Shown piece by piece: positions 2,999 through 12,866 of a stretch of 21,638 nucleotides of DNA (the first letter of the stretch is position 1; each line of letters opens with the position of its first letter). The translations under genes were made by a program, and so were the position numbers. The stretch spans positions 1-21,638 of the IMG/VR virus record IMGVR_UViG_3300027712_000175, one strand, 5' to 3'. The notes beneath the pieces were generated by a model. That model worked only from the letters and a program-made list of their open reading frames with translations. It ran no database searches and was not told the origin of the DNA. The stretch comes from a virus.

Positions 2999-3364
2999 CT
3001 ACCAACCTCGACATAATCCGTCTTGGTCTGGTACAAAATTCGGTACACCGGCTCGGGCCTGAATCGTCCTGGCTACTAGGACTTGCTCTTCGGGGGTTGC
3101 CAGGCCGGCGTGAGACGCGTACTTCTGGCCTCCATACTCGAGCCATACATCGTTACGGAATCCGATACCACCTGAGTACCGCGATCCGTGCATCTTCCAG
3201 TTACCACCGGTCTCGCAGATTGCGACTCGGTTCCATTGCTTCATCACCTCTGGACTTACCAGGGGGATTTGCTTGGGGGCCGCAGCTCGAGCACTCGGGG
3301 AATGGGCTGGGGTTGGAATCAGTAATGCGGTTATTGCGATTGCGATAAGTGCGGTGCGCTTCAT
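2999..3364 (-). CDS. secreted Rpf-like transglycosylase
   Basis: A 121-residue protein with an N-terminal signal peptide (basic MKR, then the hydrophobic ALIAIAITALLI and small residues near 20-29). The remainder resembles the catalytic domain of resuscitation-promoting factors: WNRVAICETGGNW with probable catalytic Glu51, then SGGIGFRNDVWLEYGG and TPEEQVLVARTIQ. Cys50 and Cys118 could form the family disulfide. Rpf enzymes cleave peptidoglycan glycan strands in the wall of actinobacteria and can wake dormant cells. ATG start in an ATGA overlap with the HTH gene. It has no LysM, DUF348 or tail-protein part and sits away from the lysis genes, so it looks like a free secreted enzyme rather than an endolysin or virion component. 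Confidence 0.82.
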   Translation of the reverse strand: MKRTALIAIAITALLIPTPAHSPSARAAAPKQIPLVSPEVMKQWNRVAICETGGNWKMHGSRYSGGIGFRNDVWLEYGGQKYASHAGLATPEEQVLVARTIQARAGVPNFVPDQDGLCRGW

Positions 3365-3657
3365 GCGTCCTCTTTCACTATCCACACAACGGCGCTACGA
3401 CCTGACGCGGTTTTCTCACGTCGACCGGAGTCCTCGACAAGTCCGTAACTTACGAGCTCGACGCGGCGTGGGCGACAAGTGTTCGGTGACATAGCCAGCC
3501 GTTCACTTAGTTGCTCATCCGTTGATGGGTGTCTCCGTATGGCCTCGAGGACCTCTAAACGGAGTTGGCCGGTACGGCCCTTGATGCTGGTTGCGGCCTC
3601 TCGGCTGGTTACTGAATGGATCTGATAAGGCGCTTGGTCAAAGATGTTGAGTTGCAT
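3361..3657 (-). CDS. winged-helix DNA-binding protein
   Basis: A 98-residue winged-helix protein. A short N-terminal strand region (QLNIFDQAPYQ) precedes the core LRLEVLEAIRRHPSTDEQLSERLAMSPNTCRPRRVELVSYGLVEDSG, in which the STDEQLSERL / PNTCRPRRVEL helices make the helix-turn-helix. The wing follows (REKTASGRSAVVWIV). Proteins like this are common in actinophages and probably regulate phage genes. The SD is AGGGGA about six bases before the ATG. It lies three genes downstream of the tandem promoters with dyads, so it is one candidate for their regulator. Confidence 0.75.
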   Translation of the reverse strand: MQLNIFDQAPYQIHSVTSREAATSIKGRTGQLRLEVLEAIRRHPSTDEQLSERLAMSPNTCRPRRVELVSYGLVEDSGRREKTASGRSAVVWIVKEDA

Positions 3658-4451: not shown

Positions 4452-4821
4452 CTTCATCCTCGAGGACGTAATGCTGCTCACCCCAATAGAAGCGCATTCG
4501 CGCCCGTTCCGCAGCTCGGTACTCTGCCTCGGTGGCCCAGCTTGGTAAAGCGAAACCGTTGGCTGATGCCCAGGCTGGGTGGGTGGTGATAAATGAATGA
4601 CAGCTGCGGCATAAACTTATGCAATTAGTTGGATCGAGTATCGACCCACCTCGAGCGCGTGACTTAAGTTCGTGTACATCGGTGGCGTGGTTAGTGCACT
4701 CCTCGAGGCCGCATTGACACCGGTTCTCATCGCGATCTAGCACTATCTTCCGAACATCGGTCCGGTCCCCGAGTTGGCTCCGGCGCTTGGCACTCATCCC
4801 TCTTAGCGCTTTTCGCTTCAT
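4426..4821 (-). CDS. HNH endonuclease
   Basis: A 131-residue HNH nuclease starting in an ATGA overlap with the upstream gene. A basic N-terminus (MKRKALRGMSAKRRSQLGDR) leads to CQCG...C, then DVHELKSRARGGS, the N of DPTNCISLC, and CRSCHSFITTHP. This is the complete His-Asn-His core with two zinc-binding Cys pairs. The C-terminus turns strongly acidic. It lies between the initiator region and the VRR-NUC gene, so a part in replication or recombination is plausible; it differs in sequence from the HNH at the left end. Confidence 0.85.
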   Translation of the reverse strand: MKRKALRGMSAKRRSQLGDRTDVRKIVLDRDENRCQCGLEECTNHATDVHELKSRARGGSILDPTNCISLCRSCHSFITTHPAWASANGFALPSWATEAEYRAAERARMRFYWGEQHYVLEDEDGEEPELI

Positions 4822-5168
4822 AATTCTTCTGGGTTCCAGTCGGCCTCTGGCCAATGGTTTGTCCGTTGATATTGCAGAAGTCGAGAGCGCCAGCATGGGA
4901 CACAGAACATCGGCTTAGGACCCCAATAGCCACGAATCCGCTTTATCGCCCATTGGCCGCACTCATCACAATGCCCAGGCTGAAGGCTTTTGAGTTGCTC
5001 AAAGTTCTCACTAATCCGGTCAGCGATGCTCTCCCTATCGGGCAGTGGAGTCACTTTGAGGTTCTGCACGTAGTCCCATTCAACGCTGAGCTCATCGACC
5101 TGGAGTAGGTAGAGGGTGACGACAATCGGGGGAAAGCCAACTTCGTCGATGTCCGCTTGTTGAATCAT
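4818..5168 (-). CDS. protein with C-terminal zinc finger, unknown function
   Basis: A 116-residue protein. The first 60 residues are mixed strand and helix (PPIVVTLYLLQVDELSVEWDY, then ADRISENFEQLKSLQ). The second half has CDECG and, about 25 residues later, CVPCW, a treble-clef-like four-Cys zinc site, followed by a basic/aromatic tail. It starts nine bases after the replication-initiator-like gene. That position is where phages often keep a helicase loader or an initiator partner, but there is no AAA or other loader motif here. Confidence 0.6.
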   Translation of the reverse strand: MIQQADIDEVGFPPIVVTLYLLQVDELSVEWDYVQNLKVTPLPDRESIADRISENFEQLKSLQPGHCDECGQWAIKRIRGYWGPKPMFCVPCWRSRLLQYQRTNHWPEADWNPEEL

Positions 5169-5177
5169 GACATCACG

Positions 5178-5690
5178 CTATCCTCGAGCCTTAATCCTCC
5201 GCTGCTCCCGAATCACGTCTCGGGCCTCCTGAACTCTGAGAGGATTATCTGAGAAAGAAACACCGACGGAGTGTCCAGGCAAAACTTGAGCGCCGCCTAA
5301 TTGGTTATATAACGGTTCTCTGGGGGTTAGGTCGTCACTCTGACTACTCTGACCCTTCACTCTGACTACTCTGACACGTCGCTCTGACACTACCGAATCA
5401 CTTGGGACCTGTCGCTCTGACGACCCCAACTCTATTGTGAAGCGGTATTTGTTCGAGTGTCGAGGTGTCCAGTTTTTCGTCTTCATGATGATTCGCATAT
5501 CTCTGAGCTGCTTAATCGAGCGTTCGACCGTCGACCTCGAGAATCCACTCTCCAGGGCAATTGTCGAGATGCTGGGATAGGTCTCTGAGCCGTCTTCGTG
5601 CGCGTGTTCGGCCAGCACCAGGGCCACGGCCTTCGCAGGTCCCCGTAGATCGTGAAGTCTCATTACCGCCTTGATTACATTTACGCTCAT
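5178..5690 (-). CDS. winged-helix replication-initiator-like protein carrying an internal iteron array
   Basis: A 170-residue protein. Residues 1-85 form a helix-turn-helix domain of the type found at the N-terminus of phage replication initiators (VALVLAEHAHEDGSETYPSISTIALESGFSRSTVERSIKQLRDMRII). Residues 90-118 are a low-complexity Ser/Val/Arg linker, and the C-terminus ends in a basic helix (REQRRIKARG). The linker DNA holds six CTCTGAC repeats with 22-base periodicity, as in lambda O where the origin sits inside the initiator gene. ATG in an ATGA overlap with WhiB, SD GAGGAAAG. The initiator role is inferred from domain type, repeats and neighbours (WhiB, nucleases, SSB upstream). A plain transcription regulator is the alternative. 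Confidence 0.7.
   Translation of the reverse strand: MSVNVIKAVMRLHDLRGPAKAVALVLAEHAHEDGSETYPSISTIALESGFSRSTVERSIKQLRDMRIIMKTKNWTPRHSNKYRFTIELGSSERQVPSDSVVSERRVRVVRVKGQSSQSDDLTPREPLYNQLGGAQVLPGHSVGVSFSDNPLRVQEARDVIREQRRIKARG
5338..5421. repeat. iteron-like repeats, candidate replication origin
   Basis: Six copies of CTCTGAC (plus strand) start at 5338, 5347, 5360, 5369, 5382 and 5415. Every second copy gives steps of 22, 22 and 33 bases, close to whole helical turns. Two whole units share CTCTGACTACTCTGAC. Because 22 is not a multiple of three, successive copies are read in different codon frames, so the repetition is at DNA rather than protein level. An A/T-rich patch (aattggttatataac, 5299-5313) lies just beside it. 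Confidence 0.6.
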
Positions 5691-5941
5691 TTCTTTCCTC
5701 TCATCCTGAGTCGCTGGGCCGGCGTGGTTCCACCGAATACCCCATTTACTTCCGAGTTCGCTGATTCGTATTCCTTGATAAAGGCCAGGCAGTCGGGCCG
5801 GACCTCGCACCGCTTGCACCAGGCCACTGCCTTTTTCTCATTCTCAGGCCGAAAGAATAGGTCTATGTCCATTCCCTCGCATAATGCCCTAGAACGCCAC
5901 AGAGCGCGTTTTAGGGGCCTCTCACGCCTTTCCAAAGCCAC
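5687..5941 (-). CDS. WhiB-family Fe-S transcription regulator
   Basis: An 84-residue WhiB protein. Four Cys in the family pattern (ALCEGMD with Cys21; WCKRC with Cys42 and 45; PDCLAF with Cys51) would bind a 4Fe-4S cluster. GVFGG corresponds to the conserved G[VI]WGG turn, followed by the basic AQRLRMRGKK tail that contacts DNA. WhiB proteins are confined to actinobacteria and their phages, where they act with the housekeeping sigma factor; the mycobacteriophage TM4 copy interferes with host division. The longest start is GTG; a TTG two codons later has the better SD spacing. It follows a second WhiB gene with a 20-base overlap. Confidence 0.92.
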   Translation of the reverse strand: MALERRERPLKRALWRSRALCEGMDIDLFFRPENEKKAVAWCKRCEVRPDCLAFIKEYESANSEVNGVFGGTTPAQRLRMRGKK

Positions 5942-6299
5942 TCCTCTGAAGTCGCCATTCGCGGAGATACTTCGATCCTGCAGCCTGGCAACTATCGCAG
6001 GGTTGACTACCTGCCTTTTGATGGGCGCGGTATCCGGCGTAGGTACCGTGACCGGTGGGTTGCCTGATGGTCATTCCCCTGGCGTGACGTTCCCGTCGAC
6101 GCTGGGCGAAGGTCATCCCGGCCCTGATTCCCATCGTGTTCGGATCCTCGAGCGCGTCGGCCAGACACTCCGCCGATACGTCGCAGCTCGCGCATAGGGC
6201 CTTGATAGTTCCATCGGGTTGCTCCCTACGGTCATCGTCGGCGAAAAACATACTTACGTCCATGCCACGGCAGGCCGCCTCGAGTCGCCAGTTATTCAT
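5922..6299 (-). CDS. WhiB-family regulator with a C-terminal zinc-like extension
   Basis: A 125-residue protein. The N-terminal 75 residues are WhiB-like: AACRGMDVSMFF (Cys10), LCASC (Cys36, 39), AECLAD (Cys45), then GIRAGM in place of the usual GVWGG, and a basic AQRRRERHARG. A further 45 residues carry HGTYAGYRAHQKAG and PCDSC, then an aromatic/basic helix (KYLREWRL), a motif also seen alone in small actinophage proteins and likely to bind a metal. The ATG at 6299 is preferred to an in-frame TTG at 6305; GAGG abuts it, so coupling to the upstream gene (8-base overlap) probably matters. Confidence 0.85.
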   Translation of the reverse strand: MNNWRLEAACRGMDVSMFFADDDRREQPDGTIKALCASCDVSAECLADALEDPNTMGIRAGMTFAQRRRERHARGMTIRQPTGHGTYAGYRAHQKAGSQPCDSCQAAGSKYLREWRLQRSGFGKA

Positions 6300-6501
6300 C
6301 CTCAAGCCCGACGATGATTAGACCGGCAAAAACGTAGGCTGCGAAAACACAGACCGCCACGCTTCCGAAAGTCAGCATTAGACCTCCAGTTCCGTAGGAC
6401 GGGTGCTGACTCCATGCCAGGGCGATTCCGGTTGGGACTCCGATCACAGCTGCGATTGTTGCAGCGCGTCGACGTAACTTCGATAGACGATTCCGTCTCA
6501 T
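6292..6501 (-). CDS. small two-TM membrane protein
   Basis: A 69-residue protein with a very basic N-terminus (MRRNRLSKLRRRAA) and two hydrophobic segments (about 14-30 and 40-64), ending in the acidic LEDE. It is the first gene after the TTGACA promoter and has a strong SD (GAGAGGAG). No family is recognised. Its lead position in the WhiB/replication operon suggests early expression, perhaps acting on the host membrane. Confidence 0.65.
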   Translation of the reverse strand: MRRNRLSKLRRRAATIAAVIGVPTGIALAWSQHPSYGTGGLMLTFGSVAVCVFAAYVFAGLIIVGLEDE

Positions 6502-10821: not shown

Positions 10822-12866
10822 TAGGCCACCGCCGTCCAGAAGTTCGTAGCAGACTGAGATGGAGTAGTCGTCATTGGCGAAGCAAGGGTAGTGCGGCTAC
10901 CGACAGCACAGCACCGTTGATCCAATTTTCCGGCTGAGGGCGTAGGGCAGTTGAGGTTGATTTGTGCCGCATTGTTAGCGTTCAGCCGACCCAATGCTGG
11001 GGTGATTGGAGTTCCAGCGCCGGTTCCGGTGTAGTAAAGAAATCCAATCATGTAGTTGCCTTGTGCGATTGCGTAGGCCGATGTAAGTGTCCATGCCAGC
11101 GGACCAGTCAATCCGGTAAATCCACTGGGTTGCGCATTTCCAGTCGTGGCCAGAAGGTTGCCCGAGGTGTCGTAAATACCGAGGGCGTAATAGCCACCGG
11201 TTGCCTGATAGGTAGCGCCTTGTATTTGGTAAACCCAAATTTGATTCAGGGTCATTGGATAGGGAATTGTGATGGCGCTAAAATACTCATTAGTAGAAGT
11301 CATACTTACCGATGCCGCAGAGAGCGCACAGTTTGCAGGGTCGGCGTTCCACGCCTTCATTGAGTAGGTGTTTGTGTGGATGCTTGGATTAGGTGCGCCC
11401 ATTGACTGACTCGCCACTAGCGGGTCGGTGGAAGCGCCTGGAGTGGGTAGACCGGTTATTCGATTGGAACCCATAGCGATTGCGCCGGACATTGTTCCAC
11501 CGGACTTGGGCAGAGCTGCGGCCGCTAGGTCGTAGGCCGTCTTCACCGAGTTCGGGGTAGCAGCCGTAGTGGTAGACGTTGAGCTAGTGGAGTCAGTTAG
11601 TTGGACAGCGCCCTTGACTGAGGTCGAAGCGTCAGCGATTGAGAGAGTTCGGTCTGCCGTTAAGTCTCCACCACCAGCGAGAGGGGCAGTCGTGCTGATG
11701 AGTCGAGTCTTTGGAGTAGCAGCGTTGGCCAAGTCATAGGCGGTCTTGACGGAGTTCGGGGTCGCAGCGGTAGTGGTGGAGGTTGAACTGGTGCTGTCAG
11801 TTAGTTGAACTGCACCTTTGACCGTGGTAGTGGCATCGGCAATCGAGAGGGTGCGATTAGTAGACAAGTCACCACCACCAGCCAGGGGAGCCGTAGTGCT
11901 GATGGTCGTTGATGTGCCGACTTTATTTCCTAGATCCGTAGTCAGGTTTGTGACTTGGCTCTCGGTGATTTGAATGGCAGTCGATGTGGCCGAAGTGATG
12001 CGCCCTTCGGTGGACACGCCAATCGCCGGAACGCTTGAGGCTGAGCCGTAGGTGTTCGCAGCCACGCCGGTCAGCGACAGGGTGGGGTTAGGGTAGGTTC
12101 CGTCTAACGAGCCACCAGCAGGGCCACTAGGGGCATCTGTGGTCGGTGTAGCAGTAGTCACGCCGGTCACTCGACCCTTCGCATCTACCGTGACAACGGG
12201 GATGGCCGTACCTGAACCGTATGTTCCGGCTGGCGATGGAGCGAGGGCTGTCAGGGTGGGATTGGGATAACTACCCGTGAGGTCTCCACCGGCTGAACCT
12301 GATGGGGGAAGGCTCGATGGCGTTCCCGACACTTGAGCGTAGGGAACAGTTCCGACCTTGACGGTAGGGGCGGTGGCGGTTCCAGCGACCGTTATGGTTC
12401 CATCCGCAGCCGTGACGGAAGCGACCTTGCTATTCGCCGCTGAGAGGGCGCTAGAAGCCGTTGTAGAGGCCGTAGTAGCCGTTGTAGAGGCCGTAGTAGC
12501 CGTGGCTTGGAGATTTACCCAATCGGTCGCCGTATCCGTAGGGAAGACGTTTAACTTCGTGGCCGAACCGGCAGGGTGAGCGACTGCCGTAGTGCCGTCA
12601 AAGCCTCGAGTGGCAAAAGTGATGACACCGGTGGAAGGGTTGAGAGACGTGCATTTTACGGTTTCTTCAGTAGCGAGGCCGTAGTCCAACTTGATACAGA
12701 ATGAGCCGCTAGTCCCCAGGGGCTGAATGGTCTTGGCACCGGTCGAGTCCACTTCAACCCAGCCGGTTAGATCGCTGAAGGTAGCGGTCATGGCAGTTGA
12801 GGAGATGGCTGAAACTAGGTAGGTGGGAGGGCATCCACCACCGAATGAGTTACTCGCATATGCCAT
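10821..12866 (-). CDS. long repetitive tail fibre
   Basis: A 681-residue fibre. Residues 1-120 form a virion-attachment-like domain with a short Cys-containing strand region. An Ala/Thr/Ser-rich segment (121-148, TTASTTA units) may be a trimeric coiled coil. Two modules with GGDLTGSYPNPTL / DAKGRVTGVT and GGSLDGTYPNPTL / STEGRITSAT (about 193-298) follow. Two near-identical 68-residue modules begin at residues 322 and 390 (ISTTAPLAGGGDL ... VKGAVQLTDSTSST ... SVKTAYDLA). LPKSGGTMSGAIAMGSNRITGL leads into a C-terminal beta domain (about 495-681), the likely receptor-binding part. AAGGAG SD before the ATG. Confidence 0.85.
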   Translation of the reverse strand: MAYASNSFGGGCPPTYLVSAISSTAMTATFSDLTGWVEVDSTGAKTIQPLGTSGSFCIKLDYGLATEETVKCTSLNPSTGVITFATRGFDGTTAVAHPAGSATKLNVFPTDTATDWVNLQATATTASTTATTASTTASSALSAANSKVASVTAADGTITVAGTATAPTVKVGTVPYAQVSGTPSSLPPSGSAGGDLTGSYPNPTLTALAPSPAGTYGSGTAIPVVTVDAKGRVTGVTTATPTTDAPSGPAGGSLDGTYPNPTLSLTGVAANTYGSASSVPAIGVSTEGRITSATSTAIQITESQVTNLTTDLGNKVGTSTTISTTAPLAGGGDLSTNRTLSIADATTTVKGAVQLTDSTSSTSTTTAATPNSVKTAYDLANAATPKTRLISTTAPLAGGGDLTADRTLSIADASTSVKGAVQLTDSTSSTSTTTAATPNSVKTAYDLAAAALPKSGGTMSGAIAMGSNRITGLPTPGASTDPLVASQSMGAPNPSIHTNTYSMKAWNADPANCALSAASVSMTSTNEYFSAITIPYPMTLNQIWVYQIQGATYQATGGYYALGIYDTSGNLLATTGNAQPSGFTGLTGPLAWTLTSAYAIAQGNYMIGFLYYTGTGAGTPITPALGRLNANNAAQINLNCPTPSAGKLDQRCCAVGSRTTLASPMTTTPSQSATNFWTAVA
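11505..11903 (-). repeat. tandem 68-codon fibre repeat
   Basis: Two head-to-tail copies (about 11700-11903 and 11505-11699) encode nearly the same sequence, with the core VKGAVQLTDSTSSTSTTTAA identical between them. The DNA copies differ at many third-codon positions, so the duplication is old or the copies have drifted under protein-level selection. Confidence 0.8.

Follow-up and report, generated by a model that had tools for sequence, protein, structure and literature searches.

A phased repeat array inside a winged-helix initiator gene as the probable replication origin of a phage

The origin of phage lambda, ori-lambda, lies inside the O gene, where iterons are followed by an A/T-rich tract (PMC7466680, PMC6022878). 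In phage SPP1, oriL combines direct repeats and an A/T-rich region inside initiator gene 38 (PMC6316719). For the plasmid pSK41, the pfam13730 head of the pPR9 initiator and its adjacent origin region were used to replace the pSK41 counterparts, and replication was still supported (PMC5703833). A swap of the winged-helix domain has also been reported in Gordonia (PMC10684548).

Here we describe a comparable locus in a stretch of viral DNA of 21,638 nucleotides (IMG/VR record IMGVR_UViG_3300027712_000175), the whole of which we call the window. Its order, iterons and then an A/T tract within a gene, matches that of ori-lambda. The original prediction had read the array as a phage origin and had likened it to lambda O. 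On the sequence comparisons presented below the origin interpretation was very probably right, and the likeness in layout stands, with a different Pfam family and a different repeat type. The locus would give a predicted origin to a phage group for which none is described here.

The repeat array and its conservation

Six copies of CTCTGAC were present in the window exactly where they had been placed (array 5338–5421; Table 1). Successive spacings were 9/13/9/13/33, with equivalent copies 22, 22 and 33 apart. In its coding-strand form the repeat reads GTCAGAG, and the copies begin at offsets 269, 302, 315, 324, 337 and 346 of the gene (ATG at 5690). Their frames were 2, 2, 0, 0, 1 and 1. The copies thus occupy every one of the three reading frames, which rules out a repeat at the protein level, as had been claimed.

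The repeats are direct and 7–11 bp long. Four copies (offsets 269, 302, 324 and 346; spacing 33/22/22) extend beyond the shared core; in the relative described below all four read exactly GTCAGAGNGAC, and in the window three do so while the fourth reads GTCAGAGTGAA. The shorter copies at offsets 315 and 337 are accessory, each lying 9 bp upstream of one of the last two longer copies. TRF independently found a 22-bp tandem unit at 5333–5388.

We compared the array with 20,000 synonymous recodings that kept the protein and followed the phage's codon usage. None contained six GTCAGAG copies (0/20,000), and the best 7-mer cluster, of four copies, arose once. Within the window, every other 7-mer stayed below five copies in any 84 bp. 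Lone CTCTGAC copies elsewhere in the window occurred at about the chance level and formed no second array. The motif arrangement alone was also tried as a search key among viral contigs and was rejected; it returned 11 unrelated, mostly low-complexity loci, and no initiator gene with such an array.

A single viral contig codes for a close relative of the initiator (L002), with 73% protein identity, and it is the only close relative. The contig (IMGVR_UViG_3300032225_000468; L043/L044) is 28,461 bases long and carries an identical 123-bp repeat at both ends; it therefore represents a complete circular genome of 28,338 bp. That genome is collinear with the window across nearly all of the window's length. 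All six repeat sites occurred at identical offsets in L002, one of them with a single change. The two sequences differed at 1 of 42 bases in the repeats and at 8 of 42 between them (p = 0.03), and at 47 of 269 bases of upstream coding sequence. The flank on the A/T side differed at 1 of 40 bases, versus 54 of 117 beyond it (offsets 393–509; p = 6e-8). Among codons specifying the same amino acid in both genes, 28 of 30 were identical in codons 99–131, and 55 of 80 upstream. The proposed check, that repeats and phasing should be conserved in relatives despite protein changes, thus came out in favor of the origin: L002 keeps both, while the bases between the repeats and the downstream protein sequence change. 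We concluded that this sequence pattern, taken from one genome pair, indicates selection at the DNA level, acting chiefly on the repeats and on the A/T-rich flank.

An A/T-rich patch had been noted next to the repeats. It is there (29% GC over 21 bp, in the lowest 0.2% of 21-bp windows), but it is small, and about 20 bp separate it from the nearest copy. In transcription order the gene holds the winged helix, the iterons, this gap of about 20 bp, the A/T-rich patch and a divergent C-terminal segment. GC skew failed to mark the array site because a one-sided coding bias dominates it.

Table 1. Coordinates of the initiator gene, its parts and its neighbor in the window
Feature	Position	Strand	Basis or remark
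Initiator gene, 170 aa: winged helix (HTH_36), linker, C-terminal helix	5178–5690	-	Profile matches, AF2
Winged-helix DNA-binding domain, codons 1–90, presumed iteron reader	5421–5690	-	HTH_36, AF2
Predicted disordered linker, codons 91–149; DNA holds iterons and A/T patch	5244–5420	-	AF2
C-terminal helix, codons 150–169, fast-diverging; candidate contact for host helicase or loader	5184–5243	-	AF2, divergence from L002
Iteron 1 (GTCAGAGCGAC)	5415–5421	-	First in coding-strand order; kept in L002
Iteron 2 (GTCAGAGCGAC)	5382–5388	-	Kept in L002
Accessory copy a (GTCAGAGTA), 9 bp before iteron 3	5369–5375	-	GTCAGAC in L002
Iteron 3 (GTCAGAGTGAA)	5360–5366	-	Kept in L002
Accessory copy b (GTCAGAGTA), 9 bp before iteron 4	5347–5353	-	Kept in L002
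Iteron 4 (GTCAGAGTGAC)	5338–5344	-	Kept in L002
A/T-rich patch, candidate unwinding element (AACCGTTATATAACCAATTA, coding strand)	5298–5318	.	29% GC
Downstream gene, 116 aa, CxxC...CxxC pattern	4818–5168	-	Adjoins initiator in L002 too

The initiator protein and its genome context

The initiator begins with an ATG at 5690 that shares bases with the upstream whiB stop codon (ATGA), and this start is kept in L002. Residues 15–68 match HTH_36 (Pfam profile, E = 1.6e-11), the sole domain above its cut-off. The best PHROG matches were to replication initiation (phrog_1032, replication initiation protein, 4e-13; phrog_391, O-like, 1e-10), and family matches were confined to the N-terminal part of the protein. 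An AlphaFold2 (AF2) model built with 19 related sequences showed a confident winged helix at residues 1–70 (pLDDT about 86–97), disorder across most of residues 90–149, and a C-terminal helix of 20 residues at 150–169. The repeats are encoded by codons 90–118, inside the predicted disordered linker, and so coincide with the least constrained part of the protein. Both the family matches and the predicted linker over the repeats agree with the original placement of the array in the linker of an initiator-like gene.

Structural comparison returned, among viral proteins, phage helix-turn-helix proteins that included a putative replication protein O. Matches among solved structures were generic winged helices with no significant E-value; the closest were mostly transcription factors, and the matches also included 4pql, 4pt7 and TubR-like folds. 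The initiator structures 4pql and 4pt7 we take to be RepA_N-type. The window protein combines an N-terminal HTH_36 winged helix with matches to PHROG 1032 and 391, the features of HTH_36-type phage initiators, and by profile and predicted structure it is a winged-helix phage replication initiator.

The absence of polymerase and helicase genes had been noted for the window, and it extends to the complete relative: no polymerase, helicase or primase was recognized there and DnaB_C was absent, in a scan of the large ORFs and part of the small ones. No helicase loader or P gene was recognized among the proteins scanned. Large ORFs of the relative match capsid, protease, portal, terminase, tail and tape-measure families and a phosphoesterase-type exonuclease; its head, portal and terminase genes are absent from the window. 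Among the small early genes are those for SSB, HNH, VRR-NUC and two WhiB proteins, together with several without assignment. Two adjacent WhiB-type regulator genes (5687–5941 and 5922–6305) lie directly upstream of the initiator, and this pair suggests an actinobacterial host. A scan of genome contigs found no prophage relative. The 116-residue product encoded downstream is a possible partner of the initiator.

Several other features of the window were recorded. The protein encoded at 781–1263 matches a phage HslV-type peptidase family (phrog_1040, E = 3e-20), and that at 2999–3385 has a transglycosylase-like domain (PF06737, E = 7e-17) such as occurs in resuscitation-promoting factors. Within a large tail-fiber-like gene, 11529–11908 holds two imperfect 204-bp repeats (76%); around this region the gene is longer in the relative (786 versus 681 codons). 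A syntenic phage (L015) shares the product of a neighboring 182-aa gene (72%), whereas its initiator-like gene is a different one; there, L015:9935–10032 holds three 15-bp repeats and then A/T-rich AGAATACAAAG repeats. This gene is another instance of the repeats-then-A/T design.

Repeats in other winged-helix initiator genes

We surveyed winged-helix initiator genes picked by similarity to a few seeds, namely the distant relatives L021, Rhodococcus phage Tonitrus and ctCJ8213. The hosts represented were Actinobacteria, Pseudomonas, Klebsiella, Morganella, Psychrobacter, Edwardsiella, Vibrio and others. The set comprised 56 genes in 16 clusters at 45% winged-helix identity, with 36 genes in one cluster; the first gene by name represented each cluster. 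Genes were scored by their best ungapped self-match at offsets 9–60, relative to within-gene synonymous-codon shuffles. Lambda O, the positive control, gave p = 0.003 by this method.

Significant intragenic repeats (0.01) were found in 12 of the 16 cluster representatives versus 1 of 45 control genes; the other four initiator clusters were without a significant array. Best spacings in the 12 significant representatives were 22 (three), 24 (five), 42, 45 (two) and 47, the larger values being roughly doubled spacings, and the 24-bp arrays may be partly protein-level. The arrays lie at about codon 90–180, past the winged helix, in a position equivalent to that in the window. The stretch right after the array was among the lowest 5% in GC within its gene in 22 of 25 genes, versus 12 for the matching upstream stretch. 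Related initiator genes adjoin replication P, primase/helicase or DnaB genes.

Sequences of the arrays vary: GTCAGAG in the window, AGGGGTGCCA in L021, ACGGGGTGC in Arthrobacter and Pseudomonas phages, and others elsewhere. The window shares its copies at a 9-bp offset with JBD68-like genes and with Bifidobacterium phage PMBT6. In many survey initiators (e.g. L053, L110 and L031), from very different hosts, the iteron cores approximate GGGTGC or TGAC variants. A link between a recognition-helix residue and the core (R with GGGTGC, S with TGAC) seemed possible; it has exceptions and is not claimed. In a limited, partial search of the literature we did not find a rule of repeats of about 22 bp described at the level of the survey.

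Probable origin function and comparison with known systems

The locus presents phased DNA-level repeats in an initiator gene, conserved beyond what the protein needs, and an adjacent A/T-rich candidate unwinding region that is short but conserved. We consider it highly likely that the array is the phage's replication origin, carried within its initiator gene. From sequence and analogy, the best reading of the locus would be an intragenic iteron origin read by its own product, like ori-lambda, SPP1 oriL and the pSK41/pPR9 rep gene. The winged helix would bind its iterons from a single side of the double helix (22 and 33 bp being about 2 and 3 turns), and the bound array may strain and open the downstream A/T-rich patch. 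The C-terminal helix could then bring the host helicase and its loader, after which the host replisome would copy the phage from a theta-type start as in lambda.

Three alternatives were weighed. The array might act solely as an operator, at which the winged-helix protein represses or times early-operon transcription with no origin function; the solved folds closest to the winged helix are mostly transcription factors, and the array sits in the early region beside two whiB genes. However, it lies deep in coding sequence, away from the operon start, and is followed by a conserved A/T-rich patch; moreover, the matched families are replication initiators and related genes adjoin P, helicase and primase genes. 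We regard this explanation as improbable. Still less probable is a role in partition, as a centromere-like site, or in packaging. Phased direct repeats do mark parS/parC sites and TubR-like winged helices were among the fold matches, yet no ParA, ParM or TubZ-like gene was recognized among the proteins scanned, the relative's terminase genes are several kilobases off, and initiator genes from phages of varied hosts show the arrangement as well. Recent, functionless replication slippage, which the low-complexity linker and the 22-bp tandem unit might invite, is the least probable, as the copies keep their place and sequence in a relative of 73% identity although the bases between them change, the array goes beyond the synonymous null, and the phasing recurs across clusters.

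Beyond the locus itself, we tentatively propose, with rather less than even confidence, that linker iterons phased at about 22 bp are general in HTH_36 phage initiators across hosts, and that winged helix and iterons move as one self-contained cassette; the window would hold a minimal version of 170 residues, in which a C-terminal stub brings in the host helicase with no recognizable loader. If this is true, winged-helix swaps such as that in Gordonia (PMC10684548) should bring their iterons along. More interesting than the single locus is the wider pattern: looking for DNA-level repeats spaced by about 22 bp in the linker region of winged-helix initiator genes is a simple rule by which origins could be found in many phage genomes directly from sequence.

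Among described systems, the window protein resembles lambda O in having an N-terminal DNA-binding domain, a linker that spans the origin and a C-terminal part (PMC7466680, PMC6022878). Iteron spacing is 20/24/23 bp in lambda versus 22/22/33 in the window. In contrast to the short direct repeats of the window, lambda iterons are 18-bp inverted repeats. Lambda O matches Phage_rep_O (PF04492), whereas the window protein lies outside that family and matches HTH_36. The C-terminal part of lambda O is far longer than that of the window protein (about 40 residues), and no counterpart of lambda P was recognized here. The likeness to SPP1 gp38/oriL, drawn from its published description, lies in the intragenic direct repeats and A/T-rich region; SPP1 differs in having its own helicase loader and helicase and a second origin.

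Closer in kind are the HTH_36 phage initiators, such as Arthrobacter phage RedFox gp46, Pseudomonas phage JBD68 gp54 and Microbacterium phage Margaery gp51. The proteins tested, those of JBD68, Tonitrus and GF-2, have the HTH_36 Pfam domain in common with the window protein. Like the window gene, the genes of this kind carry repeats in the equivalent place with a 22-bp period, and the JBD68-like ones also have the 9-bp offset copies. They differ from it in their iteron sequences (GGGTGC type or others) and in their C-terminal domains, which are longer and of a different kind.

In the pSK41 RepA_N system and its pPR9 chimera, the origin likewise lies centrally in rep, is read by the DNA-binding head and encodes the linker (PMC5703833). 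These are Firmicutes plasmids with antisense-RNA control, and pSK41 has a DnaD-like C-terminal domain. Together with lambda and SPP1, the pPR9 exchange of head plus origin is, by analogy, the strongest outside support for reading the window array as an origin.
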